Shown piece after piece: positions 7,549-28,300 of a DNA stretch of 64,000 nucleotides. Under the pieces are notes generated by a model that was not told the origin of the DNA, made no database searches, and saw nothing but the letters and a program-made list of their open reading frames with translations. This DNA is from Candidatus Cloacimonadota bacterium (GTDB taxonomy: Bacteria > Cloacimonadota > Cloacimonadia > Cloacimonadales > Cloacimonadaceae). Each line of letters begins with the position of its first letter. Within the stretch, counting starts at the first letter, position 1. Location: the NCBI GenBank assembly GCA_020532545.1, contig JAJBAW010000003.1, forward strand, positions 1 through 64,000. The letters are read 5' to 3'. Both the position numbers and the translations under genes were made by a program.

Positions 7549-10500
7549 CTATTCCATGAGCAGCATCTTCTTGGTGGCATTGTATCTACCTGCGGTAAAA
7601 CGGTAGATATATACGCCGCTGCTGAGCTGTTTACCGCTCTCGTCACGAGCCTCAAATACGACGCTGTGATGCCCACTGCTCCTGGCTTCATTCAGCAGGC
7701 TGCGCACCTTTTGCCCTTTGACGTTATACACATCCAGGCGTACATTGCAGGGCTCCAGGATCTCATAGTAGATCGTGGTGGTGGGATTGAAGGGGTTCGG
7801 GCTGTTGCCTCTCAGTGCAGTTGCTACTACAGGGCTATTCTGGTCTTCGTTGGCGGATTCCCACAGGGTGATATCAAGCGTGGTAGTCTGGTAAGCCGAG
7901 ACACCTACGTTCTCGATTGTGACGGTGATAGCACCCGGGGCTGAGGCGGAAACGGTGTATATCCCCCAGAGCAGCTCCAGAGAATATGCACCCGTGACAT
8001 CCGTGAGAGCAACATGATCTGCAACAGCTACTGTGGCGTTTGGGAGACCATTGCCGTCCTGACTGCGGACGATGCCGACGATAGATCCGATGGGAGGACC
8101 TATCAATATAATATTGGACAGCGCAGCGGGAGAGCTGACGTCATCGGTGTAAACAGCCTTTACACCCCAACGGTAGATGCCGCCGTACAAGGTTTGCCAG
8201 GCCTGGTCTTCGTAGGTCAGAGTGTTGATCAGCGCGCTATTGAGCAAGGTCCAGCTTGCCTCATCCTCCTCCTGATTGGAACTAAAGCGATAGATCTTGT
8301 ATCCCAATAGAGCTCTGTCATCACGGTTTCTTGATAAGGCGGCAGATTTCACGCCGTTATTTGAAATGCTTTGAGACCAATTCTGAGGCTCATCCTCGAT
8401 GCTCCTGCGGATTCCGCTCGTATCTTGATACGGAGCTTCCCACTGCAGCACTGCAGCGGTGTTTGAGGAATTGACTTCTACCACTACATTGCGAGGGGGA
8501 TAAGCAGCTTCAGACATCGGCTGCATATTCACGTTGATCACCGCTTGTTCAGCATCTACCAGTACAAGTTCCACTGTCTGAGAGATGTATCCATGTTTGC
8601 TGAAAAGCACATTATAGGTATTCGGCAGAATATAGGGGATTAGATATTCGCCGGATGCATTGGTGGTGGTCGTATAGTTCAGGCCTTCGAACTCTACTGT
8701 TGCGCCTTCCAGAGGGGCATTATTGCTGCCGGTAGTCACGGTGCCGGAGAGTGACCCAGCTCTGACCTCATTGATAAAGAAAGTCGTTTTGGGGAAGGTA
8801 CCGGTTGGGTTTCCGTAGCTCGGAGGAGCCATCGGATCGAAGGCGTTACTATCAGTTTGTCTGTTGCGAGAGCGGTTTGTGCCTACAGTCTGCGCCAAAA
8901 AGACGTTTCTGAAGCTATAGTGCTGCGTGTCCATGGGACGGCTCGCATAGAGCACCAGATTGCCACTAAAGTAGTCAAAGGGCTCGGTCAAAAAGATGGT
9001 GATGGTATTGCGCCCGGCCGGAAAACTCATCGTGCCGTCATAGACCAGGGTGAGAGTGGCAGGATCGATCCAAGCTGCACTAAGATCTGGCTCGGTAGTA
9101 CTGCCCAGCCAGAGTGTAATGGGTTTATCCTCCAGCTCATCTGCAAAGTAGGTATAGAAGGACAGGCCGGTGATCTGCCCAAAGGCACCGATTTCATCAG
9201 GATAGTACAGGGTTTGGAACAGACTATTCTTAAATGAGAAATCCCAGGGAACGAGCCTGTCTTGCACACCGTCACCGACGGTCACAGCCACTGTGTCTTC
9301 AGATAAGATCAAGATATTCAGGGGCATTGTCGTGTCATTCATACCATTGATATCACCTGTCAGCAGCACTTTACCTGTGATCGTCTGGAAACCTTCGGTA
9401 GTGGGGGTGAAGGTAAGCGTCACAACCAGGGAATCACCGGCAGCTATGCTTGTTCCTGGGGCTGAGGCCAGGATCATGCCTGCATTATCCACGATCTGGA
9501 TCTGATAGTCTGCTTGGGTGGCGGTGCCGTTATTTAACACAGTCACCGCGTAATCCGAGGGAAGGTTGAGATTCGGGGTCGTGCTGCCAGCTATGGAGCT
9601 TGCCGCCAAATCATTTGGAGCGATCTCTTCAAAGATGACGTCATCTATGTAGATATGGCTGCCCATATATAGAGGAAGTCGCCGGATGGCGATGTGTCTT
9701 CCCAGCCCTGTATGCGCAGCAAGATTCACGGTGTACTGGGCCCATCCCTGTGGTACATAGACGGTTTCAAATAGCTCGAATGTGCTGGCATTTAGGGGAT
9801 CTACGATGGTTCCGATCTGAATCTGATTATTCTGTCCACCTTTCATCATCAGCTTGATACGCAGGGTATTCAGGTCTATCGCATCGCCAATCTTGGGTGA
9901 AATGATAGTCAATACAGCAGGAGTCTCACTGGGAATCTGCATCTCCACGCAGTTTGGTGAGCTGTAAGGCCACATGGCAGAGACCCTTGGGTACCAGGTA
10001 TTGGGCCCGTTGCTGTTTAGATACGACCATCCTGTAGGAAAAATTGGCACTATGGCAGCATCCCAATTTTCCAGGTATGGCAAGCTGTAGATAGTGGTGT
10101 TATGGCCTGTACCAGAAACGTTTATGGTGTGAACTACACGCGTGATATTATCGGTTACTAGAATTTGAGCAGTGTGCGTACCATCAGCACTGGGGCTAAA
10201 ATCCAGGCCGAAGACCAGGATATCTCCGGAGGCAAGGCTTGCGGGCAAGTCCGGGACATTCGTGAAGCTGAAAGCGGCATCTCCGGTGATGGAGATACTC
10301 TAAATGCCGAGTATTCCACCCCCTGCATTGGCGATAGAGAAATCCTGATGCGCGGGAGCAGAGACCAGCACCGTGCCAAAATCATAATCAGCCGGTGTAA
10401 CCGCAAACAGTGGTTCAGCAGTGAACGGAGCTATGTGGAACGTGGTCTTGGGGAAGGTGGAAAACAGGGTTCCTGGCTCCTGAGGGCTCATGAAGTTATA

Positions 10501-12499: not shown

Positions 12500-13897
12500 T
12501 TAACCGGCTCTTATCTTAAATTGATAGGCCAATTCTTCTTTTACGTTGAAAGTCCAGCCATCCACGATGCTCTTGATCCTGGCAACAAAGCTGCCGGGAT
12601 AACTGCCATTCGGCACAACCATGGATTCTCTTACAGAACCATTGGCTGAGATATACACTGTGATGGTAAAGCTGACTTTTTGGGTAATTTGACTTTCTCT
12701 ATAGGCTTGCTCGATTTGGCTTTGGCGAGCTTGGATCTGTTCACGGACAGTAGTGAATTTGGCTCTGGAGCCTTCGTCCATGCTACCGATGCTGCCTTCA
12801 GAGACAGTGCTGATTCCTCTGGCACTGTAAGAAGCTGCAATCTGTTTTTGCTTGCTTACGTCGCCCCAGGCTTTGCCGCTGGGTGCGAGTTTGCTGGCAT
12901 CACCCAGTACATGTACGCCTTGTGCGCCTGCTGGTGCTTGGGCATAACCACCTGTGGATGGGCCTTTGCCTACCACTGAGGCTACGTCTCCAAAGGAAGG
13001 GGTGAGAGCGGGGTTGTATGAAGAACCAGCGCCAGCGCCGCCTCCAATACCTGCACCACCGATTCCAGGACCTGCTCCTCCGCCGCCGCCGGGGCGACCT
13101 GCAGAGAATCCTTCTGCTACTGTGGCTATTTGAAGGGCTGGAGCAGTACCAACTGCGCCTGCATCAAAACCTTGCAGAGCTGAAGTGAGGCTGGATGATC
13201 CAGTGGCCTTACCAGTGCCGCCGGGACGACCTGTGGCCGTACCTTCGGTGGCCTTTTCGGCAGGCTTATCTGGCTCAGCAAATGCCGCTGCTCCGGGAGC
13301 TATATCCGGCAATACTTTCTGAGCTTCACTTTGCTGACTCTGCAGAATTTCTTCCACAGTTTGAATACTTTTGTATTCAGGTTTCAGGGCCAGGTCAAAG
13401 ATAGCTAAGAAGAGGACTGTCAAAATGATTACAATCCAGATTACCGTACGGTTAAATTTCGTGACTGAGTCCGGTTTGGACCTTCTGGCATATTGGGCAA
13501 CGATCGCTTTTTCTTCAGGAGTCAATACTGCCACCCAAGGTTCGCGGAAGTCAAAGTCCACACTCCAGTTTGGGGCCAGAGTGACGGTGCCTTTGATATC
13601 TTCTTTGAGTACCAGCTCGTTGCCGGAAAGAAGGTTGTTTTGTCTTAGATACTGTGAATCCAGAGTTTCATTGCCTCGTTCACAGACGACCTGTGAATCG
13701 GGTGGCAATTCCAATACATATTCGCCGCCTTTCTGTTTGATAAGCGTGTGCTTATCAGGAAATTCGGGCTCAAGGATCTGCCATTGTAAGAATTTATTTG
13801 AACCGATTACAAACTTTCTCTTGATTTCCTTGCCTTCTTTGGCGTAGTCAAGAAACTTGCCTTTGTAGTTCAATCTGAGACTTAATATTTTCGCCAT
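12500..13897 (-). CDS. Membrane-anchored AgmX/TonB-like energy transducer with FHA-like N-terminus
   Basis: Probably carries energy from the ExbB/ExbD channel to envelope partners. In the 465 residues I see a cytoplasmic N-terminal domain (about 1-135) with an FHA-like pattern (VIGSNKFLQWQI, then DKHTLIKQKGGEYVLEL), one membrane helix at about 151-168, a Gly/Ala/Pro-rich periplasmic linker (about 205-340, with GGGGGAGPGIGGAGIGGGAG) and a C-terminal domain (about 370-465) of the AgmX/PglI or TonB kind (VSFTITVYISANGSVRESMV). In Myxococcus, proteins with this C-terminal domain (AgmX/GltJ) work with AglRQS in gliding. GGAGATATT precedes the ATG. It is the last gene of the operon, 11 bases after exbD. 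The FHA-like call is tentative, since the usual Ser-Arg before His is Asp-Lys here. Gliding is not shown. Confidence 0.75.
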   Translation of the reverse strand: MAKILSLRLNYKGKFLDYAKEGKEIKRKFVIGSNKFLQWQILEPEFPDKHTLIKQKGGEYVLELPPDSQVVCERGNETLDSQYLRQNNLLSGNELVLKEDIKGTVTLAPNWSVDFDFREPWVAVLTPEEKAIVAQYARRSKPDSVTKFNRTVIWIVIILTVLFLAIFDLALKPEYKSIQTVEEILQSQQSEAQKVLPDIAPGAAAFAEPDKPAEKATEGTATGRPGGTGKATGSSSLTSALQGFDAGAVGTAPALQIATVAEGFSAGRPGGGGGAGPGIGGAGIGGGAGAGSSYNPALTPSFGDVASVVGKGPSTGGYAQAPAGAQGVHVLGDASKLAPSGKAWGDVSKQKQIAASYSARGISTVSEGSIGSMDEGSRAKFTTVREQIQARQSQIEQAYRESQITQKVSFTITVYISANGSVRESMVVPNGSYPGSFVARIKSIVDGWTFNVKEELAYQFKIRAG

Positions 13898-13908
13898 AAT
13901 ATCTCCAT

Positions 13909-14451
13909 TTACCTACCTGCAGCAGAACTGTATGATTTCAGCCAGTCTGCATCTTCTATGGTTGCAAAGTAAATATTTTGGTAACCGGTGTTTGTGCCTA
14001 CCCGAACAATCTCAGTGATAAAACCACAGGGTAAGTTGCCATCTGCTTGAACTATCAAGCAGGCATCATCCCATTTACTTTCAGGGATTCCGCTCCACTC
14101 ATTGCGGAAGAATTCTTGCATCATTTGGCGCTTGTTAACGTTTTCAATCAGGTCCTGAGGTGAACCCAGGTATAGATTGTCCACTCCCAATAAAACACGG
14201 TCTGTATAAAGCTTTACGGGTGTTACCATCGGATTTTCCATCAAGGCATCTTTGGTCATCGTGGTTGGATATCTCATATCCGGCAATTCGTTAATTTTCA
14301 CTGCTTCCATGGAGACATTCTTCATTAGAAACACCAAGATAATTGTAAGCACGTCCAAAAGAGAAGTGATGGAGAGTCCTTTCTGTTCTTCGTCTTTTTT
14401 ACGGACAACTCTTCTTCCTTTCTTCCTGCTATTATTCAAATTATAACTCAT
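13909..14451 (-). CDS. ExbD/TolR-family protein with intact membrane aspartate
   Basis: Component of a proton-driven motor with the ExbB-like channel. The 180 residues have a basic N-terminus (SRKKGRRVVRKK), one membrane helix and a periplasmic domain. The helix reads ITSLLDVLTIILVFLMKN; Asp33 aligns with the proton-carrying Asp25 of E. coli ExbD. The periplasmic part is longer than in classic ExbD and ends SYSSAAGR. GGGGAGGAAAAA lies before the ATG. It is 17 bases after the second ExbD gene, so the pair is co-transcribed. The periplasmic sequence is otherwise not familiar. Confidence 0.85.
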   Translation of the reverse strand: MSYNLNNSRKKGRRVVRKKDEEQKGLSITSLLDVLTIILVFLMKNVSMEAVKINELPDMRYPTTMTKDALMENPMVTPVKLYTDRVLLGVDNLYLGSPQDLIENVNKRQMMQEFFRNEWSGIPESKWDDACLIVQADGNLPCGFITEIVRVGTNTGYQNIYFATIEDADWLKSYSSAAGR

Positions 14452-14468
14452 TTTTTCCTCCCCAAATC

Positions 14469-14993
14469 CTAATAAAAGTAGACGTTTCTGGGGTTTTTAT
14501 AATGCACTGTGGGGAATCCATTTTGCTTGCAGAGGTCAATCGTGCGGATCAAGGTATCATACACAACTTCGGGGTGCACAATCACAGCTATTTCAGAGGT
14601 GTCGGGATGATTTTTCTTCAGATCCACCAGAATTCTATTCAGTCTGGGAAAATCATAGATCATCTCTTGGAGTACGGGTAGCTGGGTTTTAGTACCGTCA
14701 ATATCGCGTATTTCCATGCCCTGAAACAGTCCGGCTTCTGGTTTGTCGCGAAGCATTAGATGAATCTCGATTTGTTTTGCAGATTCACCACCGCCTCCGC
14801 CAGCACCGGCTGCACTTGGACCTCCGGCCGAGGTAAAATTCAAAGCCACAAGTGCTACCTGTGAGACCACGACCATCAGCATTAAGAATGGGATAATCGT
14901 GACAAACAAGTTCATGATGGGAACCAGGTTTGGTTCCTCAGGAGCAGTTTGTGACTTCTGTTGCCTCGCTTGGGAAGGCCGATATACTGCCAT
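14469..14993 (-). CDS. ExbD/TolR paralogue with Asn in place of the membrane aspartate
   Basis: Second ExbD-like protein of the cluster, 174 residues: short cytoplasmic tail, one membrane helix (about 22-52) and a periplasmic domain. The helix aligns with its neighbour and with E. coli ExbD, but reads NLVPIMNLFVTIIPFLM: Asn28 stands where the essential proton-carrying Asp is expected. The periplasmic domain is recognisable (NRILVDLKKNHPDTSEIAVI, VVYDTLIRTIDLCK) as the TolR/ExbD fold, preceded by a Gly-rich stretch (GAGGGGGES). Starts 4 bases after the exbB stop. The substitution suggests a structural or asymmetric role rather than proton transfer. Confidence 0.85.
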   Translation of the reverse strand: MAVYRPSQARQQKSQTAPEEPNLVPIMNLFVTIIPFLMLMVVVSQVALVALNFTSAGGPSAAGAGGGGGESAKQIEIHLMLRDKPEAGLFQGMEIRDIDGTKTQLPVLQEMIYDFPRLNRILVDLKKNHPDTSEIAVIVHPEVVYDTLIRTIDLCKQNGFPTVHYKNPRNVYFY

Positions 14994-14997
14994 GTTC

Positions 14998-15768
14998 TTA
15001 TTCCTTGATAAAGTTGTTGATATGATTTACCAATTTTACACTATACTCATCGATATTGCTAATCAGGGTAGTAGCACGTGTATAGAGACCACCTTTGATC
15101 AAGGTGAGAGGGATAGCACCCATCAAACCAAGAGCGGTGGTTCCGATAGCTACATAGATACCATCGGTAAGCGCTTTTTGCTGAGCTGCACCGGTGAGTC
15201 CACCGAGAGCTCCGAAGGCTTGGATCAAGCCAAAAATAGTTCCCAGAAGACCAAGGTATGTGGAGATCTGAGCTAAGGTATCGAACCAGAACAGGCCACC
15301 GTCAAGTTTGTGCACGGTCTGTAGCACTGCTTCGTCAAAAGCGTTTTGTACCGCAATACGGCCTTCTTCGCCTTTCTTTCCGGATTTACGAACGTCTTTG
15401 TACACGGTCATGCCGCTCCAAAAAATAAAGCCCATGGTAGTGCCCTTGAATTGGTCAGCGATTTTTGTGGCTTCATCGATTTGGTCGTTTTTCACAAAGT
15501 TTTTGAGCTTGAAGAAAAACTTCTCGGCATCGATTTTCTCACGGACAAATAGCTGAATGTAACGGACTACGGCCAATGCCAGACCGATCAGCAGGTTTGC
15601 TAATATCAAGTAGGCAAAGAACCCGCTAGTTGAGAACACCTCAATTAAATTTACTCCTCCACCGGAAGTAGGAGCTGTTGTCGCAGTCGCTACCGCCTCC
15701 TGCGCGAAGAGAAACCCTACACTGATTAACAGGGCGATCACAACGAGTATGCTATGTTTGCTTTTCAT
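14998..15768 (-). CDS. ExbB/TolQ/MotA-family proton channel protein
   Basis: Inner-membrane channel subunit that should pair with the two ExbD-like proteins. The 256 residues start with a cleavable-looking signal (MKSKHSILVVIALLISVGFLFAQ written here in part: MKSKHSILVVIALLISVGFL), then three membrane helices at about 48-68, 165-190 and 205-232. The family core is clear: TLAQISTYLGLLGTIFGLIQ, then GIYVAIGTTALGLMGAIPLT. Its four-base overlap (ATGA) with the small gene upstream, with AAGGAGTCAAA before the ATG, shows tight coupling. An extra N-terminal signal peptide is known in some ExbB proteins. Confidence 0.92.
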   Translation of the reverse strand: MKSKHSILVVIALLISVGFLFAQEAVATATTAPTSGGGVNLIEVFSTSGFFAYLILANLLIGLALAVVRYIQLFVREKIDAEKFFFKLKNFVKNDQIDEATKIADQFKGTTMGFIFWSGMTVYKDVRKSGKKGEEGRIAVQNAFDEAVLQTVHKLDGGLFWFDTLAQISTYLGLLGTIFGLIQAFGALGGLTGAAQQKALTDGIYVAIGTTALGLMGAIPLTLIKGGLYTRATTLISNIDEYSVKLVNHINNFIKE

Positions 15769-16055
15769 TTTGACTCCTTAAGCCATTTATTTAATAGTAA
15801 TTCACTGTTGTCTTCTATGATTTTTGCATCCAGGATAAAACGGTATTTGCCGGATGCCATAAAAGTATCTGATTTGGATTTGTAGATCCCCGATACCGGA
15901 GCCATAGACCGTACTTCGATCTCAATTACATCTTCGTCCACATAGACTCCCTGGGTATTTACCCGGGGTCTGATTGTGGTCTGTTGCGCTTGCTGGGCAA
16001 ACAGTGCGGAAGCCAGCAGCAGTAAAGTACATAGGATAATGATGTTCTTTTTCAT
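15765..16055 (-). CDS. Small exported protein of the ExbB/TPR operon
   Basis: Unrecognised 96-residue protein. A clear Sec signal (MKKNIIILCTLLLLASALFA) is followed by about 75 periplasmic residues (RPRVNTQGVYVDEDVIEIEV ... GKYRFILDAKIIEDNSELLL) with a likely beta pattern and no cysteine in the mature part. It overlaps the TPR gene and exbB by four bases (ATGA) at each end, and a very strong TAAGGAGGAAATCCG site lies inside the end of the TPR gene. This coupling suggests a small periplasmic subunit of the same machine. The function cannot be told from sequence. Confidence 0.8.
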   Translation of the reverse strand: MKKNIIILCTLLLLASALFAQQAQQTTIRPRVNTQGVYVDEDVIEIEVRSMAPVSGIYKSKSDTFMASGKYRFILDAKIIEDNSELLLNKWLKESK

Positions 16056-19000
16056 CGGATTTCCTCCTTACCGGCCTTTGCATAGACGATTGTAGCCAGA
16101 AAGCCGCGATAGGCTGAATTGTTGTTTACTACGAAACGGAGGACGTTTCTACCCATAACGACGTTTTGTGCGGGGATAGGAATCTGGCCGGGATAGACCA
16201 TGAAGGGCTCAGCATCATAATCGAAGTCAACGCTTCCGATGCTGGTTCCATTCAGGTAAACGGTTACGGATTCCGGTGCGACAAGATTTATCATGCCTTC
16301 TCTGAATTCTGTATCCAAGACAAACTCTGTTTCAAATATCATATCTTTAACAGGCCCTTCAAGCTCGGAAGTCCAGATTGGGCGAGCTGTATTTTCGTCC
16401 ATGTCTTCAATGCTTTTCCAGGGGATGTTCCACTCGTTAGCCTGAGTGGCAGAAGAGCTGATCTCTTCTTTTGTATTGGGATCGATTTTGACGATCTTCC
16501 ATCCGGTGCCGCTGCGCAGAGTGGTAATCACGGGCGGGACATTTGCCTGAAGACGCTGAAGGCTGGTCAGGAGCTGGAGATTCATTGCCATTTGCATTTC
16601 GTTCGAACTGTCGTTGGTAAATTCAATCTCTACGCTGTTGTCGCCTTCGGTAAAGAGTTCTCCAGGGATCATGAAGCTGTATCTCGTGGTCATCGCTTTA
16701 CCGGCTTCCAGGCTGTCTATAGGCACCCAGGCCGATTTTACCAGGCTGCCATTGAGCGTGACTTGCATATCCAGGGGATACATCACCTGCAAGTAAGCAA
16801 AATCAGGGGCCATATCAGCATTTACCACACGGCTCACACGCAGGGTGTTGCCAGCAGGAATTGCTGCACTGCCCAGTTTCTGTCCTTGCGGACTCTGTTT
16901 AGTGGAGAAACTCAAGGTCTGTCCGGAAGGCTGTAGCACTTGCTGCCAATCCTTATTCAGGATGTAATCCTTCTTGCGGTATTCGGAGAGGAGTCCCCGG
17001 GTTTCCAAAGCATTACGGGCAGCCATGCTGTAGGCATTTTGATATCCGGCCAGATGATACTGGCGGAATATCTCATATTGCCAGGAGACTTCATTGTTCA
17101 GATAGAAGCCAGTCTGCTGGAAAGTAAATTGAGCGATCAGGTTTTCAAGAGCATCACCCTTGTATTCCTGTCTGTAGAACGCAGCTTCATTGGTATCACG
17201 GAAGTATCTTTCGAGCTGAACGCCTACCACCACTGCTCCGCGGGCATAAAGCCTGGCGATCAGGTCCATGGCGCGTGTTCTTCTGTCATTATCTATATAG
17301 AATCCGCTTTCATTGGATTCTTTTACCAAAGCCAGGACTTTGTTCACTTCTGCTGTGACGACGCCTTCGTATTTGGGGATTCTGCGTTCGCCGGCATTAA
17401 GGTGTCTGTCCCAGGTAGTAGCGGAATTCACCCTGATCTGCTGGGCTGGTGAACTGGTGAAGACATTGGATTTGTTCAGTGCATCCAGACGTTTGTCATA
17501 GGCTGTCACATAGGCTTTACCACGTTGGATGTTGTCGTATTCTTTCTGAACAGCAATGAACACTTCATGCACTTTCTGGTTTTCAAATTTCAGGCCTTCT
17601 TTTTTGTATCCAGCCTCTACTGTATTGTAGTTATCACGCACTTTAAAGGCTTCAGTCCAGTCTTCATTGAGGTATGCGCTATCAAAATCTCCCGCAATCT
17701 TCTGCAGCTGGGTATCTGCTACATATTGGTAATAAGTACTTTTATCAGGGCTGAGCTTCATAATTCTGCGAGCGAGCTCTGTGTACTCATCCATTTCTTT
17801 GCGATCCAGATGACCTTTGGCCATGTATTCCATATAAGGGATCACATTCTCATGCTGCGGATAAAGCTCAATAAAGCGGTTACGCAGTTCGTATTCCTTG
17901 CTGGTGTTTGAAGTCTTGGCATACATCAGAATGGCGTCAGCCAAGAGGGCAGAAGCTTTTACTTCGCCAGCATCAATTTTGGAGGTGCGGACTTCTTCAA
18001 AGAGACCCAGGTAACCTTCAGCGGCAGCGGCAGGATTGCTTGCTGCGAGACCGTTGGTCTTGGCCAATCTGAGCAGGAAGGTATAGTTGCTGGCCGGATA
18101 TTTATCGGTAAATTCCGTTTCAATGCTATCTGCCAATTTGGTGTTGTTCATCATATCAGGTTTGCCCGCTATGTCTATTGCTTGTTTGTAGCGCGCGTAG
18201 ATGGCATCGATATTGGTATCTGTCTTGGCTATTTCCATGAGGAGGTCTATCGCTTCTTGATAAGCGCGGGCATTGATATAAGCCTGCACAGCGGCGACGC
18301 GATGACCCAGGATATCGGCACTTTTGGAAGGATCAAGCTCTGCTGCCAGACGGAGCCGTTCAGTGGCCTCGGTGGTGTAATCTCCACCAGCGGCTGCACC
18401 TTCATAGCTAGTCTGAATCTGTACCAGGACATCTTGTTGGATGCTGGCTTTTTCACTGGCTGAAGTGGCCAGGGGAAGGGCTTTGCGGAGCCACTGTTCG
18501 CCTTCGCTATTCTGGCCCTGGGAAATGTTCATATTGGCCAGCTTGAGATAGGTCTCGTATTTGTCTGTATTAGAGAGCAGATCTTCTTTCTGAAGTGCAT
18601 CGGTGTACAACTGGATGGCTTCGGGGTATTTCTTCCTATCCATCTGGATGTCCGCTAAGAGCAGTTGGATGTTTAAGGCTTCACGCTGTCTTTCAGGAGT
18701 GCTGTAAGGTTCTTTATTTGAGACCAGAATAAAGCGGTCTGCGCTGGCTTTGAGGATGGCATATGCTGCGTCCCCGGAGCCGGCAGATCCTTCTGGTTGC
18801 TCTTCTGACGTTTCCGTCAAAGAGGCGTACACGTTTCTGGCATAGATCATCGCACGTTGCTCGAGATCAAAGTATTGAGCATTGGTGGGATGGCTATCAT
18901 TGTAGCTATAGATCTTATTGATAGCGCTTTTATAGTTTTCCACAGTCCGGCTTTGGTCTGCCAATACTATATAGTTATCTACCAATACGCTATCTGCAGT

Positions 19001-21874
19001 TGCGCTGAAGGCTGCGTAATTATCATTATGTACTTTGGCAAAGGCATCATAATCTTGCATATAAGCTTGGTACGCAGTCAGATTATCAAGGTTTACCTCG
19101 CGGGCAAAGTTGTTATACAGTCTGATTCTTCTTTGCTCATAGGCATTATCCACGATTTGCATCTGTTTAGTGATGTCACTGTTGCTGTTTGTCTTGTACC
19201 ATCTGGATTCGTGGTTATAATCCACGATGATCTTCTGATACATCTCTTGGGTAATCTCATCCAGGTCAGCACCTTCTCTGAGTTTCTGACCGGAATTGTG
19301 GTAAAGCACCAAGATTGAATCTTGCAGGATGGGGTTTATCAAAGCCATAGGAAAGCTCTGAATACGATAATTTAAGAAGTCAGCAGCCTGGACCGAGACA
19401 CCCATATCCAGCTTATGCTGGATTGCTTTGTCCACAACCTGACGAATGACGTCTTCGTTATTATAATCTTCAAAGACAACATCTACTGCTGCCACACCAC
19501 GGGAGAGCGTATTGAAGTTCGTTCCGTCCAGGGCAATAAGGCAATAGGCTATGTTATCGATGGCATCGGTTTTGTAGTCTTGTGCCAATTGCGGATCCGA
19601 GATCTTCCCGGAATCTGAAGCTATCAGGATTTCCAAAAAGTCGCTCATCGCCTGTTTCAGTTCGGTTTCATCAAAGCTGTTCAAGCGTACCCAGCCTCTC
19701 TGATAAAGCGCCTCATAATATAAGGGACTTTCAGGTCTGGCAACGATCTGATTAAACTGCTCAATAGCCATAGCATGGTATTGGGCAGGGGTAGAGGAAT
19801 CATCTGCAAAGCTGAAGTATAAGAGTCCCAAGCGATATACGGCTTCCTCATGCATTTTGGAATCTGGGTATTCACTTACGATCTCATTCAGAGCATCCAG
19901 GGTCTCGCGGAAATTCGCTTCGGAATAAAGGCTATTGGCGGGAGGCTCATCTGCTGATCTGGCTGTTGCCAGGAAATTGATCTTGTTTTGGTCGAGCTCC
20001 ACGCGTTTGAGATCACTGGTGATGAAGGCTACATTATATAAGGCCAGGTCTCGTTCCGGCAGATCAGCGTCCAGAGCAATAGCTCTGCGATAGCTGATGA
20101 GGGCCGGCCGAAGGTCTGCGGGATATGCATAATACTGCAATTCTCCCAGTTTATAGTACAGGTCTGCAGAACCTACGAGATTGCTGCCACCCGGCTGTTC
20201 AAAGGCATTAAAGCTGGGATTATCGGCAAGGAAGCCTTCGATGTCAGAGATCATGGCAAGCTGTTTCTGTCTGTAACTCTGTTGTGCAGCTAAGCGCTCA
20301 TCATCGGTAAGCGTGGCCTGGGTATCAAGGTATTCATTGTATTGAGCCATCAAATCACGATAACTGAGGTGCAGGCTGATGAAGTCTATATGGGAAAGGT
20401 AGCTGCCATAACCGCTGGTGATGTCTTGGATGCGACCATTTGCACCGCGAAGGTCGCTGACACTAGTTGAAACGTCGGCAAGGATTTTGTTTTCTTGCTC
20501 TTCACTAACCATGGTGCGGATTTCGGTGCGCACATAGTCGTCAATCTCATCCGTCAAGTGAGTGAGATCCTTACTGTCCTTCAGGAGCTCATCGTATTCA
20601 GCCAAAATAGCCAGCAACTGCTCTTGATCCGCCGCATTGGTGTACTGCAGGTCCGACATATACTTCGCTCTCACAAGCTCAGTTTCAGCTTTTTGCTGCA
20701 TGATCCAATTGCGTTCTTCATTCAAGCGCTGGGTTTGGTCAGTATATTCACCGCTGGCCAACAGGCCATCGATGTCATAAAGCATTTCTTCATAAATGGC
20801 GATGGTGCGATCGGTCTGGTAGATCCTATCCAAAAACAGGTCTGCAGTATATACCGCTTCGCCTCCAGCGCCTTCACTGCTCAGACGCAGGAAGTTTTGC
20901 TGCAAGAGATTGTCAAAATTCTGTAATACTCTATCATAATAGGCGATATTCGCTCTAACGCCTTTGATCATTTCTAAGGCAGGTCCGAGTTCATCGCGCA
21001 CTGTAAGGCTGGTATTGGAAAAGGCGGTGAGGGAATCCTTGAGCTCGTTCAGTTTTTTCATCTCATAGTCATGGGCCTCTACGATGGAATCCAAAAACAG
21101 CATGCCTTGCATTGAGGCAATTTCGCTATTGATCATCGTAAGGTCGGTCATAATCTGGTTTATACTAGAGATTAGAACTTTATATTCGCTGTCTGTGGGA
21201 TTTTCAAAATAGGAAGCCAAATTAAGGTTGTCCAAGCCTCGTAAAACCTGTTGTTTGGCCGGAAGCAGGGTGTTTAGCACCAGCTCTCGGTTCAAATTGT
21301 AGGTGTAAATCAGGTTCAGGACATCTTCATAGTTCCTGTTATCCGCGCTCAGATCAGAGTAAAGATAAAGGAAGGAAGGGAAGTACTCTCCGGTATTGTA
21401 ATATTCAAAAACTATATGTTTTAAAAAATCTCTTGCCGATTTGCGATCTCCAGACTCAAGCATATTGGCGAGTCTGTGATACAGGACAAGATTAAGCATC
21501 TTACGCGCATCTGCGTTGAGGCTGGTTCTGAGCAGCGAGTCAAATATAGGTATAGCCCTGTCGTCTTCGCCGATCCTGGCATACATGTGCCCCAAAAGGT
21601 AAGATATGTCGTCTTCCCCCATAGAGTTTATAATGCTGCTAAATAACTGTAATTGATTGTTCGCTTCCTGGGGATCCAGCTCGATAAGGGCAGGCAATTC
21701 GTCCACCAGAAATTCTTTTGCAGCTTCTCTGATTAGCCTCTTCTGGACGCGGATGTCTTCCTTATACTGCTCAATAACAAGTTGCTCTTCCGCACTAACG
21801 GCCTGGGCAACAAGGTTGGATATGCAAGTTATCGAAAAGACCACGAGCAAAACCAAAAATAAATACTTTTTCAT
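16052..21874 (-). CDS. Giant exported TPR-repeat protein
   Basis: Exported protein of 1,940 residues, likely periplasmic or attached to the outer membrane. The ATG at 21874 gives a Sec signal (MKKYLFLVLLVVFSITCISN); an in-frame ATG at 21937 lacks a ribosome site. Most of the protein is helical. Early parts (about 200-550) look like coiled coil; then tetratricopeptide-like units recur (MHEEAVYRLGLLYFSFADDS; YPEAIQLYTDALQKEDLL; KYETYLKLANMNISQGQNSE). The last 250 residues turn to beta sheet, with two similar sandwich-like stretches (FMIPGELFTEGDNSVEIEFT; IPAQNVVMGRNVLRFVVNNN). TPR proteins also accompany the Agl/Glt motor of Myxococcus, but I cannot show orthology. Probably a scaffold connecting the motor to the cell surface. 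Confidence 0.85.
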   Translation of the reverse strand: MKKYLFLVLLVVFSITCISNLVAQAVSAEEQLVIEQYKEDIRVQKRLIREAAKEFLVDELPALIELDPQEANNQLQLFSSIINSMGEDDISYLLGHMYARIGEDDRAIPIFDSLLRTSLNADARKMLNLVLYHRLANMLESGDRKSARDFLKHIVFEYYNTGEYFPSFLYLYSDLSADNRNYEDVLNLIYTYNLNRELVLNTLLPAKQQVLRGLDNLNLASYFENPTDSEYKVLISSINQIMTDLTMINSEIASMQGMLFLDSIVEAHDYEMKKLNELKDSLTAFSNTSLTVRDELGPALEMIKGVRANIAYYDRVLQNFDNLLQQNFLRLSSEGAGGEAVYTADLFLDRIYQTDRTIAIYEEMLYDIDGLLASGEYTDQTQRLNEERNWIMQQKAETELVRAKYMSDLQYTNAADQEQLLAILAEYDELLKDSKDLTHLTDEIDDYVRTEIRTMVSEEQENKILADVSTSVSDLRGANGRIQDITSGYGSYLSHIDFISLHLSYRDLMAQYNEYLDTQATLTDDERLAAQQSYRQKQLAMISDIEGFLADNPSFNAFEQPGGSNLVGSADLYYKLGELQYYAYPADLRPALISYRRAIALDADLPERDLALYNVAFITSDLKRVELDQNKINFLATARSADEPPANSLYSEANFRETLDALNEIVSEYPDSKMHEEAVYRLGLLYFSFADDSSTPAQYHAMAIEQFNQIVARPESPLYYEALYQRGWVRLNSFDETELKQAMSDFLEILIASDSGKISDPQLAQDYKTDAIDNIAYCLIALDGTNFNTLSRGVAAVDVVFEDYNNEDVIRQVVDKAIQHKLDMGVSVQAADFLNYRIQSFPMALINPILQDSILVLYHNSGQKLREGADLDEITQEMYQKIIVDYNHESRWYKTNSNSDITKQMQIVDNAYEQRRIRLYNNFAREVNLDNLTAYQAYMQDYDAFAKVHNDNYAAFSATADSVLVDNYIVLADQSRTVENYKSAINKIYSYNDSHPTNAQYFDLEQRAMIYARNVYASLTETSEEQPEGSAGSGDAAYAILKASADRFILVSNKEPYSTPERQREALNIQLLLADIQMDRKKYPEAIQLYTDALQKEDLLSNTDKYETYLKLANMNISQGQNSEGEQWLRKALPLATSASEKASIQQDVLVQIQTSYEGAAAGGDYTTEATERLRLAAELDPSKSADILGHRVAAVQAYINARAYQEAIDLLMEIAKTDTNIDAIYARYKQAIDIAGKPDMMNNTKLADSIETEFTDKYPASNYTFLLRLAKTNGLAASNPAAAAEGYLGLFEEVRTSKIDAGEVKASALLADAILMYAKTSNTSKEYELRNRFIELYPQHENVIPYMEYMAKGHLDRKEMDEYTELARRIMKLSPDKSTYYQYVADTQLQKIAGDFDSAYLNEDWTEAFKVRDNYNTVEAGYKKEGLKFENQKVHEVFIAVQKEYDNIQRGKAYVTAYDKRLDALNKSNVFTSSPAQQIRVNSATTWDRHLNAGERRIPKYEGVVTAEVNKVLALVKESNESGFYIDNDRRTRAMDLIARLYARGAVVVGVQLERYFRDTNEAAFYRQEYKGDALENLIAQFTFQQTGFYLNNEVSWQYEIFRQYHLAGYQNAYSMAARNALETRGLLSEYRKKDYILNKDWQQVLQPSGQTLSFSTKQSPQGQKLGSAAIPAGNTLRVSRVVNADMAPDFAYLQVMYPLDMQVTLNGSLVKSAWVPIDSLEAGKAMTTRYSFMIPGELFTEGDNSVEIEFTNDSSNEMQMAMNLQLLTSLQRLQANVPPVITTLRSGTGWKIVKIDPNTKEEISSSATQANEWNIPWKSIEDMDENTARPIWTSELEGPVKDMIFETEFVLDTEFREGMINLVAPESVTVYLNGTSIGSVDFDYDAEPFMVYPGQIPIPAQNVVMGRNVLRFVVNNNSAYRGFLATIVYAKAGKEEIR

Positions 21875-21943
21875 AACACCGCTCACTTTAGACTCTTTCT
21901 CTCTTGTATAATTAGTCACTATTTCATTTTTTTTCATTAGTAG

Positions 21944-21976
21944 GATGGCCAGGATGTCGTTGCATCCTGGCTCACT
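21944..21976 (-). promoter_or_regulatory. Hairpin in the leader of the TPR operon
   Basis: GCCAGGATG (21948-21956) pairs perfectly with CATCCTGGC (21963-21971), and the stem can be extended by AGTAG/CTACT. On the minus strand it is not followed by a T run. It sits between the outer-membrane protein gene and the TPR start, and may be a weak terminator or attenuator that sets the ratio between them. Confidence 0.45.
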
Positions 21977-22033
21977 ACTTTTATATAAAGGAAGGTATGA
22001 TTCTTAAACTTCACTATCTAAGATACTGCGATC

Positions 22034-23164
22034 TTAATTCTTCTTGCTTTTAAGCTGGTCGATCCAGATACGCAGATCATCAAGTGATTTCTGGGCTTTT
22101 TCGCGTTCAGTTCTAAGCGCACGCAACTCTTCCAAGAGGTCTCTTACGTCTGGAGAGAGCTGAGCTTGAGAAGCACTGGATCCGCTTCCGGTAAGGCCAG
22201 GGGTCTCGATAGTCGTGCTGGTGGAGCCTCCTGTAGGAGGTACTACCACGACTTGAGGTCCACTGGTATCGGTAGGTGGGATCATCACGCCATCTTCATC
22301 GGGACCTGTGCCCAAGTCAACAACGTAAGGATCGTCCATGTGGTGGTCTTTGGCATAGAGGCCGAGGTCTGGACGACGCTTTGTTTCTGCGTACTTATCC
22401 AGCAAATAAGAGATACCAAAGGCTACTCTGAGGTTGTCTTCATATCCGTTATCTTTGGCCAGGTCTTCTATGGCTTGCGCGCCCACTTTGAAGCCCCAGT
22501 TTTTCCAGCTGTATTTGATGCCGGAGTTAAATTCATGACCGTCAAATTCCACCTGAATCGCTAAATCGCGGAGAGGTGAAAGTTCGGCAGAGGTGAACAG
22601 GCCATTAAAGATACGGGAGCGGCCAACCTGACCGGTGAAGCGATGAGCACCAAAACCCAGATTAAACATAAAGGGCATACCAGCGATCACAGCCTGTTTG
22701 GAGGCTACAGCATAGGGAGAAAGCATCTCGTAAGCTGCTTTATCAGGATGATTGTAGAAATCATCTCCGGGTTCCAAATCTTCTATACTGGTCTTGGCCA
22801 ATGGGGACAGGATATTATCTACACCGACTGTTAATTGCGGGAGAAAGAGAGTCTCCTGCAGGATTTTTCCTTTTACATTCAAAAAATAAACCAAGGGCTC
22901 GTCTTCGATTTTGTCGCCGAGAAACAGGCCTAATTCGACTCTGTCCATAATGCCAACTCCAGCCATCAAATAAGGCGTGAAGCCATCGTACTGAACTGGT
23001 TTGGCAACGTCTCTGTAATATCCAACTAACATAAATTCGGCAGCCATATGTGGTAGCACATAGGCATCCGGGGTGCGTAGCATACCCAGAGTCTGGAATG
23101 GCGCAGCATCCAGCAATCCGAACATCGCTACAACAACGATTACACTTAAAATAACTTTTTTCAT
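22034..23164 (-). CDS. Outer-membrane protein with C-terminal coiled coil
   Basis: Probable outer-membrane beta-barrel, 376 residues. The ATG at 23164 has GGAGGG before it and gives a signal peptide (MKKVILSVIVVVAMFGLLDA). The middle has alternating beta strands (YLMAGVGIMDRVELGLFLGD; LRDLAIQVEFDGHEFNSGIK; WGFKVGAQAIEDLAKD). A Pro/Thr/Gly/Ser linker (about 290-335) leads to a C-terminal helical stretch (LLEELRALRTEREKAQKSL) likely to form a coiled coil in the periplasm. The open frame extends to 23308 but overlaps the divergent yraN. It is upstream of the TPR gene on the same strand, so it may be the outer-membrane partner of the ExbB/AgmX machine. No specific family recognised. Confidence 0.75.
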   Translation of the reverse strand: MKKVILSVIVVVAMFGLLDAAPFQTLGMLRTPDAYVLPHMAAEFMLVGYYRDVAKPVQYDGFTPYLMAGVGIMDRVELGLFLGDKIEDEPLVYFLNVKGKILQETLFLPQLTVGVDNILSPLAKTSIEDLEPGDDFYNHPDKAAYEMLSPYAVASKQAVIAGMPFMFNLGFGAHRFTGQVGRSRIFNGLFTSAELSPLRDLAIQVEFDGHEFNSGIKYSWKNWGFKVGAQAIEDLAKDNGYEDNLRVAFGISYLLDKYAETKRRPDLGLYAKDHHMDDPYVVDLGTGPDEDGVMIPPTDTSGPQVVVVPPTGGSTSTTIETPGLTGSGSSASQAQLSPDVRDLLEELRALRTEREKAQKSLDDLRIWIDQLKSKKN

Positions 23165-23253: not shown

Positions 23254-23640
23254 ATGGTTCAAATATCAAAACAAGATTTAGCCCGTATGGGAGAAAACGT
23301 TGCTGCAAGCTATCTGGTAACCGATGGCTATAGTGTCGTTTGCAGGAACTTCCGCGTCAAACAAGGCGAAATTGATCTGATTGTGGAAAAGAATCAACAG
23401 CTAATATTTGTTGAAGTAAAAACACGATCTTATCACTCTATAGTTAGCGCTCTGGCCAACGTGAATTATCGAAAACAGGTCCACATCACTAGAGTCGCAC
23501 TAGAATATTGTAGGCAGAATCCTCAATTTGACAACTACAATACTCGATTTGATGTCATAATAGTCCTTCGAGATAAGCGAAATGATAGCTTTAGTGTGAA
23601 ACACTTCAGTGATGCATTTCTTCCTGTACTAGGTGATTAG
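23254..23640 (+). CDS. yraN: YraN/UPF0102 family protein
   Basis: Small conserved protein of the UPF0102 family, with an endonuclease-like fold; its role in most bacteria is unknown. The 128 residues show the family pattern: GENVAASYLVTDGYSVVCRN at the start, then QGEIDLIVEKNQQLIFVEVK, which contains the D-ExK residues of the PD-(D/E)xK fold. Length is normal. It starts at 23254, divergent from the outer-membrane protein gene with about 90 bases between them. Confidence 0.9.
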   Translation: MVQISKQDLARMGENVAASYLVTDGYSVVCRNFRVKQGEIDLIVEKNQQLIFVEVKTRSYHSIVSALANVNYRKQVHITRVALEYCRQNPQFDNYNTRFDVIIVLRDKRNDSFSVKHFSDAFLPVLGD

Positions 23641-23962
23641 GATATCTGCTTGTCTATGAATATTTGGGCTAAAAATAATTTATTGCTTCTTTTGGGAAAA
23701 TGTGAAAGAGACTAATCACAAATCCTGGGTTTGAGCCGCAGCATTGAGTCAACCGCCAAATGATACCTTGACTCTTGCTTTATCGTTCACTGCGCTGTCA
23801 ACGGGCTTTTAACTCGAGTTGACTTGAATTCTCAAGTGAACTCGAGTCTAAACTTCGTTAGAGACAAGTCGATGGCACAGGCAAGGGCAGGGTGTTGCCT
23901 GGCTGGCAGACATATTGCTTCATGCCATTATAGCACAGAAGCTTGCAACTTCCCAATTTGGG
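23641..23962. other. Gene-free gap with a palindrome
   Basis: 322 bases between convergent genes. The only structure I see is palindrome copy B (23801-23870). The 63- and 111-codon frames starting here run into the DUF975 gene on the other strand and are shadows. Confidence 0.6.
23801..23870. repeat. CTCGAG palindrome family, copy B
   Basis: ACTCGAGTTGACTTGA faces TCAAGTGAACTCGAGT (one mismatch in 16) with almost no loop. It is followed by TTCGTTAGAGACAAGTC, like the ends of the other copies. This copy has the GTTCACTT type of inner arm instead of GATGACTC. Confidence 0.75.
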
Positions 23963-24544
23963 CTACGAAAGAGGGCTGGACTGCAACTGTTTCAGATCTG
24001 CATAGAAGACCGTGAGCGCTGTAGAGAAATAGGGCGTCACATAGATCAGTGCGATCCCGAAACTGAGCAAACACAGGATAAACCAGCCGATGAAGCTAAA
24101 CCACAGATCAAACAATCTCCATTTATGCCCATACATCATCCGCTTGCTGGCCTCCATGGCTTCCTGGGCGGAAAATTGGGGATTCTCTTCCATAATATAG
24201 AAGGTCATACTATAGGAGAAAGCTGCGATGATGCCGGGTATGATGAGTAACAAGCTCCAGAGAAAGACATATAGACTGATGAGCAATCCGGCAACAAAGC
24301 TGCGTGAAAAGTCCTCAAAACCAGAAAAGAGCATCTCAATGCCGATCTTTTCTTCATCCAATACCTTTAATAAGACTTTGGCCAAGCCCAAAGACAGCGG
24401 TCCAGAGAGCAGTAATGTTCCAATGACTACGACCGAATTCGCAAAAGACATCATGATGCCATACACAAACAGCACGAGAATCAGCATGCCCATCTGCGTG
24501 TTCATCAATCTACGGGCTTCGGCGCGCATCTGAAAGCTATTCAT
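23963..24544 (-). CDS. DUF975-family membrane protein
   Basis: Integral membrane protein, 193 residues, of the DUF975 family (unknown function). I see about five hydrophobic segments and the family signature LLIIPGIIAAFSYSMTFYIM followed by SAQEAMEASKRMMYGHKWRL and a final PYFSTALTVFYADL. The ATG at 24544 has AAGGG before it; a TTG at 24550 is possible but less likely. The start overlaps the end of the upstream membrane-protein gene by 8 bases, so the two are coupled. Confidence 0.8.
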   Translation of the reverse strand: MNSFQMRAEARRLMNTQMGMLILVLFVYGIMMSFANSVVVIGTLLLSGPLSLGLAKVLLKVLDEEKIGIEMLFSGFEDFSRSFVAGLLISLYVFLWSLLLIIPGIIAAFSYSMTFYIMEENPQFSAQEAMEASKRMMYGHKWRLFDLWFSFIGWFILCLLSFGIALIYVTPYFSTALTVFYADLKQLQSSPLS

Positions 24545-25181
24545 TTTCAACCCTTCTAAAAGCCTTGTTTATTTCCAGGGCTATATAAAGGAAGGCAAGA
24601 GCCAAGAATAAGGCAAAAGCGCCCATGGCTAGCGAGGGCAGGATGCCGTACATTGAAAACATGACGCCGGCTTCGTTTTGCATGAAAAATAGCAAAGCTC
24701 TGATGGCCGAATACATTTCAAAAGCCGAGGCTGCAAACCAGAATATGGCAAGAAACCAATACTCAAATTCCGGCAGCACAGGCACCTGGTATTCGGGATC
24801 CTTGAACTGGATGATGGCGCGGATGCCGTTTCCAACGTAGAGCATGGAGATGATCAAGGCAAAGGCTCCCCAGATCATGATGATAGTGGAAGACTGAATC
24901 TGATAAAATTTGGCATGAATCTGCAAATAGAAAATAGTCAAGGCGATGCCGATGACAACGCCGAGCAGATTCCACAAGCGGATTGTGCTGCGCTTTTTTA
25001 TTTTCGGAGATTCGGTAATCAGGAGATCGGACTCCGGCTCAAAATCATAGCCGCGGTGGGTCAGCTCCAGCATGATGGCGCTGTAAGCCTCGCTATCGGT
25101 TTCTGCTTGCTCAAAGAGCCTTTTGAGATCGTGATCCTCACAAGAGCTGTAATCTGGATATTGTTCTTCTTCGTAATTCAT
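24537..25181 (-). CDS. Four-helix membrane protein of unknown function
   Basis: Unrecognised 214-residue protein. The first 65 residues are acidic and soluble (NYEEEQYPDYSSCEDHDLKR), with a helix resembling an adaptor segment (LKRLFEQAETDSEAYSAIML). After a basic patch (KIKKRS) come four hydrophobic helices and a short charged end (NKAFRRVENE). The ATG at 25181 has AAGGA before it; the open frame extends by five codons to a TTG. Coupled by overlap with the DUF975 gene, so they may act together in the membrane. Confidence 0.7.
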   Translation of the reverse strand: MNYEEEQYPDYSSCEDHDLKRLFEQAETDSEAYSAIMLELTHRGYDFEPESDLLITESPKIKKRSTIRLWNLLGVVIGIALTIFYLQIHAKFYQIQSSTIIMIWGAFALIISMLYVGNGIRAIIQFKDPEYQVPVLPEFEYWFLAIFWFAASAFEMYSAIRALLFFMQNEAGVMFSMYGILPSLAMGAFALFLALAFLYIALEINKAFRRVENE

Positions 25182-25399
25182 ATGCCTATCCTTCAACTTA
25201 GTAGAGGCAAGATAATCGTTCTTGCAATGCTGTCAAGCAGAGACTTGAATTGCTTGATTTTTGTATGGGGTGATCACGGTATTTGTCAGAGAATATGCCC
25301 CAAAAAAGAACTGTGGAAATTGCAAGGTTTTGCGGAATTGTAGTTGACACATATCTGCTGTTTCAAATCATGAACTGCAAGATAACGATGGAGAAAAAG

Positions 25400-28300
25400 A
25401 TGCCCTTTGTACATTTACACAATCACACGCAATACAGTTTGTTAGACGGCGCTTGCCGGGTTGATCGCATGGTGAAATTGGCCAAAGAGCTATCTATGCC
25501 TGCCGTGGCAATCACGGATCATGGCAATCTCTTTGGCGTGATAGATTTTTATCATGCGGCCAAAAAAGCCGGCATCAAGCCTATAGTCGGCATTGAGGCG
25601 TATATCATCAATGGTGATATCGGCTCTGAATTCAGCAAAAATGACACCCGCTACCACCTCGTGCTGCTGGCTCAGAATTATCAGGGTTACAAGAACCTGA
25701 TGAAGCTATCTTCGGCATCTTATATCAATGGATTTTATTACAAGCCCCGCATCTCGAAGGCTATGCTCGCGGAGTATAATGAAGGGCTGATCTGTCTTTC
25801 CGCCTGTGTGAAAGGCGAGATTCCCTCTCTGCTGCTGGCCGGGCGTGAGCAGCAGGCCAAAGAGGCTGTGCTCTGGTACAAGGAGCTTTTTGGGGATCGC
25901 TACTATCTGGAGATTCAAAATCACGGTCTTGACATGGAAAAAACGGCGATGCCCCAAGTGATCGCTCTGGCCAAAGAATGTGAAGTCCCGCTGGTGTTGA
26001 CCAATGACTGCCACTATCTGCATCAGGAAGATCATGAGGCTCACGATATCCTGCTCTGCATCCAAACCGGAAAGCTGCTCAACGATCCCGGACGCATGCG
26101 CTATAATACCACACAGCTGTATTTTAAGACCTCCGAGGAGATGAAAGAAATCTTCCCCGAAGTGCCCGAGGCCTATGAAAACACGCTGAAAATAGCCGAT
26201 CGCATCAATCTGGAGCTTTCTTATGACAGCTTCCTGCTGCCGGAAGTTGAGACCCCGCCAGAGTTTAGCAGCATGGGCGCATATCTGAAGCATCTCTGCT
26301 ATGAGGCGGCCCAGAAGAAGTATCCGGACTTTGGCGACAAGGTGCGGGAGCGCATCGAATACGAACTTGATGTGATCGGACGGATGGGCTTTGATGGCTA
26401 TTTTTTGGTGGTGAAGGACATCATCGATAATGCCCGTAAACAGGATGTGGCAGTGGGGCCGGGACGCGGTTCTGCAGCCGGCAGCATCATCGCCTATCTG
26501 CTGGATATTACCAAGATTGACCCTCTGAAATACGGCCTTCTTTTTGAAAGATTCCTGAATCCGGATCGCATCAGCATGCCGGATATTGACATCGACTTCT
26601 GCGCGCACGATCGCGGTAAAGTAATAGATTACATGGTACAAAGATACAATCGTGAGAGCGTTACCCAGATCATCACCTTCGGCACCCTGGGTGCAAAAAG
26701 TGTGATCAAAGATGTGGCGCGCGTGCTTTCCCTGCCTGCCTCGGATGCCAATGCCATCACCAAGACCATTCCCGGAGTGGTGAAAAGCCTGGAAGATGCC
26801 CTCAAGCAGTTCCCCGAATTTGCCAAACTGATCAACCAAAACGAGCTTTACAAAAGCATCCTCAAACACTCCATTGTTCTGGAAGGCTTGATCCGCCAGA
26901 CCGGTATTCATGCCGCCGGAGTGGTGATAGCCCCCGGAGATCTCACAGACTATGTGCCTCTGGCTTGCAGCGGGCAAAAAGATGGTGAAAAGGTGATCCT
27001 CGTTCAGTATGAAGGTAAGTGGCTGGACGAGCTCAAAATGCTCAAAATGGATATCCTGGGCCTGAAAACCCTTACCTTAATAAAGAAGACCATCGAACTG
27101 GTAAAACGGAGCCACAATGTGGACCTCGATATTGACACCATCCCCCTGGATGACAGGAAGGTTTTTACCCTGCTTAGCAAGGGAGAAACGGATGGAGTTT
27201 TCCAGTTTGAAAGCGATGGCATGCGCAAATATCTCATCGATCTAAAGCCGAATATCTTTGAAGACCTCATCGCCATGGTGGCGCTTTACCGGCCCGGCCC
27301 CATGCAGTTTATCGATAGTTTCATCGCGCGCAAACATGGTCGGGAAAAAGTGCAGTATGACCATCCTCTGGTAGAAAATGCCCTGAAGGAAACCTATGGG
27401 GTCACCGTTTATCAAGAGCAGGTGATGCGCATATCTCGTGAACTGGGCGGACTTTCCGGTGGCGAGGCAGATACCCTGCGTAAGGCTATCAGTAAGAAGA
27501 AGACCTCGCTGATGATGAAGTTCCAAGAGAAGATCATCGAAGGAGCTTCCAAAAACCAGGTGCCGCGGGCTACGATCGATAAGATCTGGCAGGATTGGCT
27601 GAAGTTTGCCGAATATGCTTTCAATAAGAGTCATGCTACCTGCTACGCTCTGGTGGCCTATCAGACCGCCTGGCTGAAGGCGCATTACCCGGTAGAATTT
27701 ATGGCCGCGCTGCTCTCTCTGGAAGATGATTCCAGCGCTATCCCAAACAAGATTGAAGTGTGTAAAAACATGGGTATCAATATCATCCCGCCCAATATCA
27801 ATCGCAGTGATGCCGAATTTAGCGTGCATGGCCGCGATGTGCTGTTTGGACTGCGGGCCATCAAAAACTTAGGAGAAGCCGCTATGCGGGCCATCATCGA
27901 AGACCGCGAGCAAAACGGCATCTATAATAATATCTTCAATTTCTGCTCTCGTCTGGACAGCTCTTCAGTGAATAAGACCGTATTGGAAAGCCTGATCGCA
28001 GCCGGCGCCATGGACGAGATGGAAGGCAGCCGGGCCCAAAAATGGGAAGTGATCGAACAGGCTTTGGCGCTTTCTTCCGGTGACCAGCGAGACCGTAAAC
28101 GGGGGCAGACTTCCCTCTTTGATCTGATTTCAGATGAAGATGATGACGACTTTTTCCCGCCTCTGCCTGCTGTGGAAGACTGGAGCTATCTGTATAAATT
28201 GGACCAGGAAAAGGCTGTACTGGGCTTTTACATGAGCGGGCATCCTCTGTTTGAGTATCGCGCCTTGATGAGGCATCTGACAAATGCTGATTCCAGAACG

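Follow-up and report, generated by a model that had tools for sequence, protein, structure and literature searches.

The window, a stretch of 64,000 nucleotides from a Candidatus Cloacimonadota bacterium, harbours seven genes that form a real, single operon. Their products probably constitute a trans-envelope force machine driven by the proton motive force, of the AglRQS-GltG core-complex family, and we hold this reading, including the mechanism given below, with good confidence. One of the two ExbD proteins encoded in the operon, ExbD1, lacks the proton-carrying Asp, which is a new observation and was absent from the first-pass annotation. Homology of the motor comes from sequence comparison; force transfer, stoichiometry and cargo are what we infer.

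All seven open reading frames are present on the minus strand at the positions first given for them. The operon starts with a predicted outer-membrane beta-barrel protein with a C-terminal coiled coil (OMP, 22034-23164; the barrel is a prediction), followed by a giant exported TPR protein with C-terminal jelly-roll domains (16052-21937) and a small exported protein of 96 aa (15765-16055), a conserved gene. The genes encoding the AglR-type subunit ExbB (14998-15768), ExbD1 (14469-14993), ExbD2 (13909-14451) and a transducer similar to GltG/PglI, the FHA protein (12500-13897), complete the set. The last six genes had been described as overlapping or separated by fewer than 20 bases, and this is the case, with overlaps of 4 bases between the TPR and small protein genes and between the small protein and ExbB genes, and gaps of 4, 17 and 11 bases from ExbB to ExbD1, ExbD2 and the FHA gene. 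Pfam agrees with the earlier naming of ExbB (PF01618, E 2e-20), of both ExbDs (PF02472, E about 4e-8) and of the TPR repeats. Genes encoding YraN, DnaE and two GWxTD-domain proteins (23254-31266) are conserved upstream neighbours of the operon in most relatives. Just downstream, at 7549-10248, lies the gene for a large exported protein that combines carboxypeptidase-regulatory domains with a Por secretion/FlgD-Ig tail at its C-terminus.

Conservation of the gene order in relatives had been proposed as a check on the cluster, and the order is kept across the phylum. The arrangement OMP-TPR-(small)-ExbB-ExbD1-ExbD2-FHA was found in all 20 regions first fetched, and the same order was present in nearly all of 20 further regions, including genomes outside the taxonomic order. 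The FHA protein was found in 34 out of 40 genomes and ExbD1 in 72 out of 104 genomes of the phylum. Together with the kept gene order, these counts argue that the cluster is not a chance array. In outlying families the giant TPR protein is split between two genes, one of about 680 aa and the other of 1300-1500 aa. The search for ExbD1 on plasmids gave no match. In one genome (G100) the cluster occurs twice, on separate contigs (L279, L280), and another (G026, L285 8309-9925) possesses a divergent second ExbB-ExbD1-ExbD2 set, in which Gly replaces the Asn/Asp of ExbD1.

Genomes of Myxococcota and of the Geobacter type were reached via an MglA probe; the Myxococcus probe sequence was confirmed by matches at 99% identity. 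A record that bears the name Comamonas sp. KCTC 72670 (L086), apparently in error, encodes an MglA with 98% likeness to the Myxococcus probe, along with a close GltG. In most of the Myxococcota and Geobacter-type genomes, the top matches of the window ExbB profile were loci with two TolR genes. In a tree of 43 ExbB sequences, the window family fell together with the AglR-type rows in one group (support 99/95), with TolQ, ExbB and the paralogues of the source genome itself outside of it. The Minicystis rows lie inside this group, and an AU test on a subset that lacked them was set aside. The channel threonines T170, T177, T210 and T211 of ExbB are invariant.

The two ExbD proteins match the two TolR-like subunits of AglRQS one to one, ExbD1 with AglQ and ExbD2 with AglS, and in the same gene order. 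In seven AglRQS-type triplets, the first TolR scored 46-64 bits with the ExbD1 model and the second scored 30-51 bits with the ExbD2 model. The TolR/ExbD proteins of other systems reached at most 11 bits with these models, two Minicystis loci being intermediate. The triplet of Myxococcus sp. CA023 (L197) is none other than AglRQS; the AglQ there is 162 aa long and carries Asp28, in agreement with the AglQ described as MXAN_6861 (PMC3169522) and with the work on aglQ D28N (PMC3858216). The first-pass annotation had noted a likeness in kind to AglRQS-Glt; for the motor, the ExbB tree and the selective matches of ExbD1 and ExbD2 to AglQ and AglS show at the sequence level that the likeness to Myxococcus AglRQS also reflects common descent. 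Because of this tree, these one-to-one matches and the GltG/PglI layout of the last gene, we assign the whole set to the AglRQS-GltG core-complex family.

ExbD1 carries the motif LxPIMNLF, with Asn where ExbD, TolR and AglQ carry Asp, and N28 of the window ExbD1 aligns with D28 of AglQ. At this position 48 of the 49 ExbD1 copies have Asn, the remaining one, a divergent paralogue, having Gly. ExbD2 retains Asp in all 49 copies, at position 33 in the window protein. Both TonB-type ExbDs of the source genome (L210) also have Asp. In the window pair, only one TolR-like subunit thus has the transmembrane Asp that has been described for both AglQ and AglS (PMC9389320). Among eight AglQ-type relatives for which the alignment was read, however, seven have Asp and one, from Nannocystis, has Asn too, so we treat the presence of Asp in both subunits as a variable feature of the family and not as a defining one. 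In Myxococcus, the AglQ substitution D28N abolished proton conductance, motility and sporulation (PMC3858216). The motor of the window probably runs on a single proton carrier, located in ExbD2. Most simply, the two would form a heterodimer with proton transport confined to ExbD2, the pairing of ExbD1 with ExbD2 and its stoichiometry being what we infer. Alternatively, ExbD1 and ExbD2 could form separate homodimers, one of them inactive.

The AlphaFold2 model of the FHA protein comprises an FHA fold (residues 1-120), a transmembrane helix (144-171), a disordered segment (194-335) and an alpha/beta end, with a TonB-like C-terminus at residues 375-464. Pfam gave no match to an FHA domain in this protein. 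Nonetheless, a Foldseek search with the fold retrieved Rv1747 FHA-1 (E 4e-4) and ArnA (E 9e-4), and the earlier call of an FHA-like cytoplasmic domain is thus right by fold, though not by Pfam. The AgmX/PglI C-terminal domain (NF033768) was detected in 20 out of 21 members (best E 3.4e-8), and TonB_C matched weakly in four of the 21. The layout is that of GltG, with an FHA domain, one transmembrane helix and an AgmX/PglI C-terminus. The last gene had been described as AgmX/TonB-like, but its counterpart is GltG/PglI, which combines FHA with a TonB-like end, and not AgmX/GltJ. The individual matches between the FHA-protein model and GltG of Myxococcota are weak, and the best match of the whole profile in Corallococcus, also weak (E 0.006), is the GltG of a gltD-E-F-G-H cluster. 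A contact between AglR and GltG has been published from two-hybrid work. The usual Arg of phosphothreonine binders is absent from the FHA domain, where Ser33 is found in 20 of 21 members; phospho-dependent control is therefore unlikely.

The TPR protein has 1961 aa if counted from the first ATG and 1940 aa if counted from the internal Met at which the signal peptide begins, the latter being the length of 1,940 residues reported for it before. Its last 417 aa were modelled as helices and jelly rolls (AlphaFold2, pLDDT 89), for which Foldseek found jelly rolls of lectin and beta-galactosidase as well as BcsB; there are also weak CBM-like Pfam matches. The modelled jelly rolls hint at contact with glycans. 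The top match of the TPR model in Myxococcota is GltD (E 6e-8), although this match is non-specific, as TPRs resemble each other. Of the 21 OMP members, 13 matched YjbH weakly, with a best E of 4e-4. The first-pass annotation had proposed a search of each protein against Glt proteins, which revealed no sequence homology for OMP or the small exported protein. OMP was rejected as a GltH homologue, its model being without a match to GltH/NfsH. The small exported protein was rejected as a homologue of GltF, since the signal to GltF/NfsF, near the top with full-length models, was gone without the signal peptide. It is a positional counterpart of GltF and occupies the place of the GltF-like protein of Nannocystis, but the mature parts do not match.

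In the proposed mechanism, five ExbB subunits would surround one ExbD1 and one ExbD2 helix, and protons would pass only via Asp33 of ExbD2. ExbD1, its carrier site dead with Asn28, would support its partner structurally or by gripping the peptidoglycan. As the ExbD pair rotates or tilts, it would pull on the FHA protein, whose long flexible linker may traverse the peptidoglycan and whose TonB-like end may grip the periplasmic TPR scaffold and, via it, the outer-membrane protein. As a result, surface or outer-membrane cargo would be moved or reorganised. By analogy, this cargo is most likely a polysaccharide or a surface protein, as the outer-membrane complexes moved by Glt and by Nfs are linked to slime and to spore-coat Exo polysaccharide, respectively.

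The machine might instead power type IX-like (SprA) protein secretion or surface-adhesin transport, acting in place of GldLM. SprA was identified in 29 out of 30 genomes, including the source genome, a Por-tail protein is encoded near the operon, and a search for GldM (TIGR03517), run without a positive control, gave no match above chance in 40 genomes. With SprA present and GldM undetected, protein transport is a possible job of the machine, albeit an unproven one. However, the SprA gene is unlinked to the operon, and two near-complete genomes (G031, G032) possess SprA and lack the FHA protein and ExbD1, so SprA can be retained without the machine; overall we regard this reading as unlikely. 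Improbable, too, is its more specific form, an asymmetric 5:1:1 motor with a single proton-carrying ExbD, phylum-wide, that drives SprA-type export or surface protein transport and replaces GldLM. The SprA gene of the source genome (G000:C4, L306 1377-7619) lies beside a pantothenate-kinase-like gene, and SprA also occurs in 28 of the 29 relatives. In the literature, type IX secretion has been described as confined to Bacteroidota. Gliding motility as in Myxococcus would be in keeping with the AglRQS-type motor and the GltG-type transducer, yet MglA was found in none of 30 genomes (E 1e-5), which makes Myxococcus-style gliding unlikely. The core complex, moreover, is also present in non-gliders and is insufficient for gliding (PMC3169522), and the window OMP has no GltH/NfsH match, so that we give a gliding motor very little credence.

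ExbB, ExbD and TonB-like components, together with the weak TonB_C matches, would also suit a TonB-type system energising an uptake receptor. The operon lacks a receptor, however, and another locus of the same genome (L210 4528-9874) holds a receptor, ExbB, two Asp-bearing ExbDs and TonB. The window ExbB groups with AglR, apart from the ExbB of that locus, and the transmembrane-helix His of TonB/TolA was not found in the transducers of the 21 members. The separate cluster agrees with the earlier view that the set does not resemble a TonB system for uptake, and we consider such a role highly improbable. An outer-membrane stabilising system similar to Tol-Pal finds some support in the best NCBIfam name for ExbB, tolQ, which lies far under the cut-off. 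On the other hand, no match to TolB or Pal was obtained with any of the seven genes, the genome encodes a separate set similar to TolQ-TolR-TonB/TolA (L209), and TolQ is placed apart from the window ExbB in the tree; this reading is scarcely credible.

Returning to the asymmetric core-complex motor, the division into an Asn-bearing and an Asp-bearing subunit across the phylum is evidence, supplied by nature, for a heterodimer and for one carrier being enough. With a residue that is essential in the Myxococcus motor lost naturally, the working of such motors can be tested directly. The asymmetric pair provides a ready test object for stepping models and bears on how the work is shared in ExbD-type pairs within a five-fold ring. 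Where GldM was not found, the question arises of what powers SprA secretion.

Compared with AglRQS-Glt of Myxococcus (core AglR, AglQ, AglS, GltC, GltD, GltE and GltG), the operon shares the AglR-type ExbB and the AglQ/AglS-type ExbDs in the same order, as well as the FHA-TM-TonB-like transducer, large TPR protein(s), a small exported protein and an outer-membrane protein. It differs in having Asn instead of Asp28 in the AglQ equivalent, in its single operon and in the absence of MglA. The window family also possesses a giant single TPR protein with jelly rolls and an FHA domain without canonical phosphothreonine-binding residues, and its OMP and small protein are not homologous by sequence. 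The Agl-Nfs spore-coat machine of Myxococcus has the same motor type, and the Nfs D-E-F-G-H set consists of the same kinds of proteins; in contrast, the window offers no sporulation context, and homology to NfsF and NfsH was not found.

Clusters of the PVC group (PMC12204202) likewise combine a TPR gene, one TolQ, two unlike TolRs and a single-TM transducer, although that transducer has a vWA-fold end and keeps the SHLS histidine, neither of which is present in the window transducer. The core complexes of non-gliders (Luciano 2011: Geobacter, Gammaproteobacteria and one Fibrobacter) are encoded, as in the window, by a single operon, and the Agl-type core complex is here packed into one compact operon. 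In Citrifermentans, the order of TPR, small exported, ExbB, ExbD1, ExbD2 and TonB-like genes matches that of the window, but the first TolR keeps Asp and the transducer has a predicted coiled coil at its start in place of FHA. The ExbB-ExbD-ExbD-AgmX cluster of Nannocystis (L206 8494-11925) differs from the window in having a recognisable GltF-like protein just upstream, and similar to the window its first ExbD carries Asn and its second Asp.
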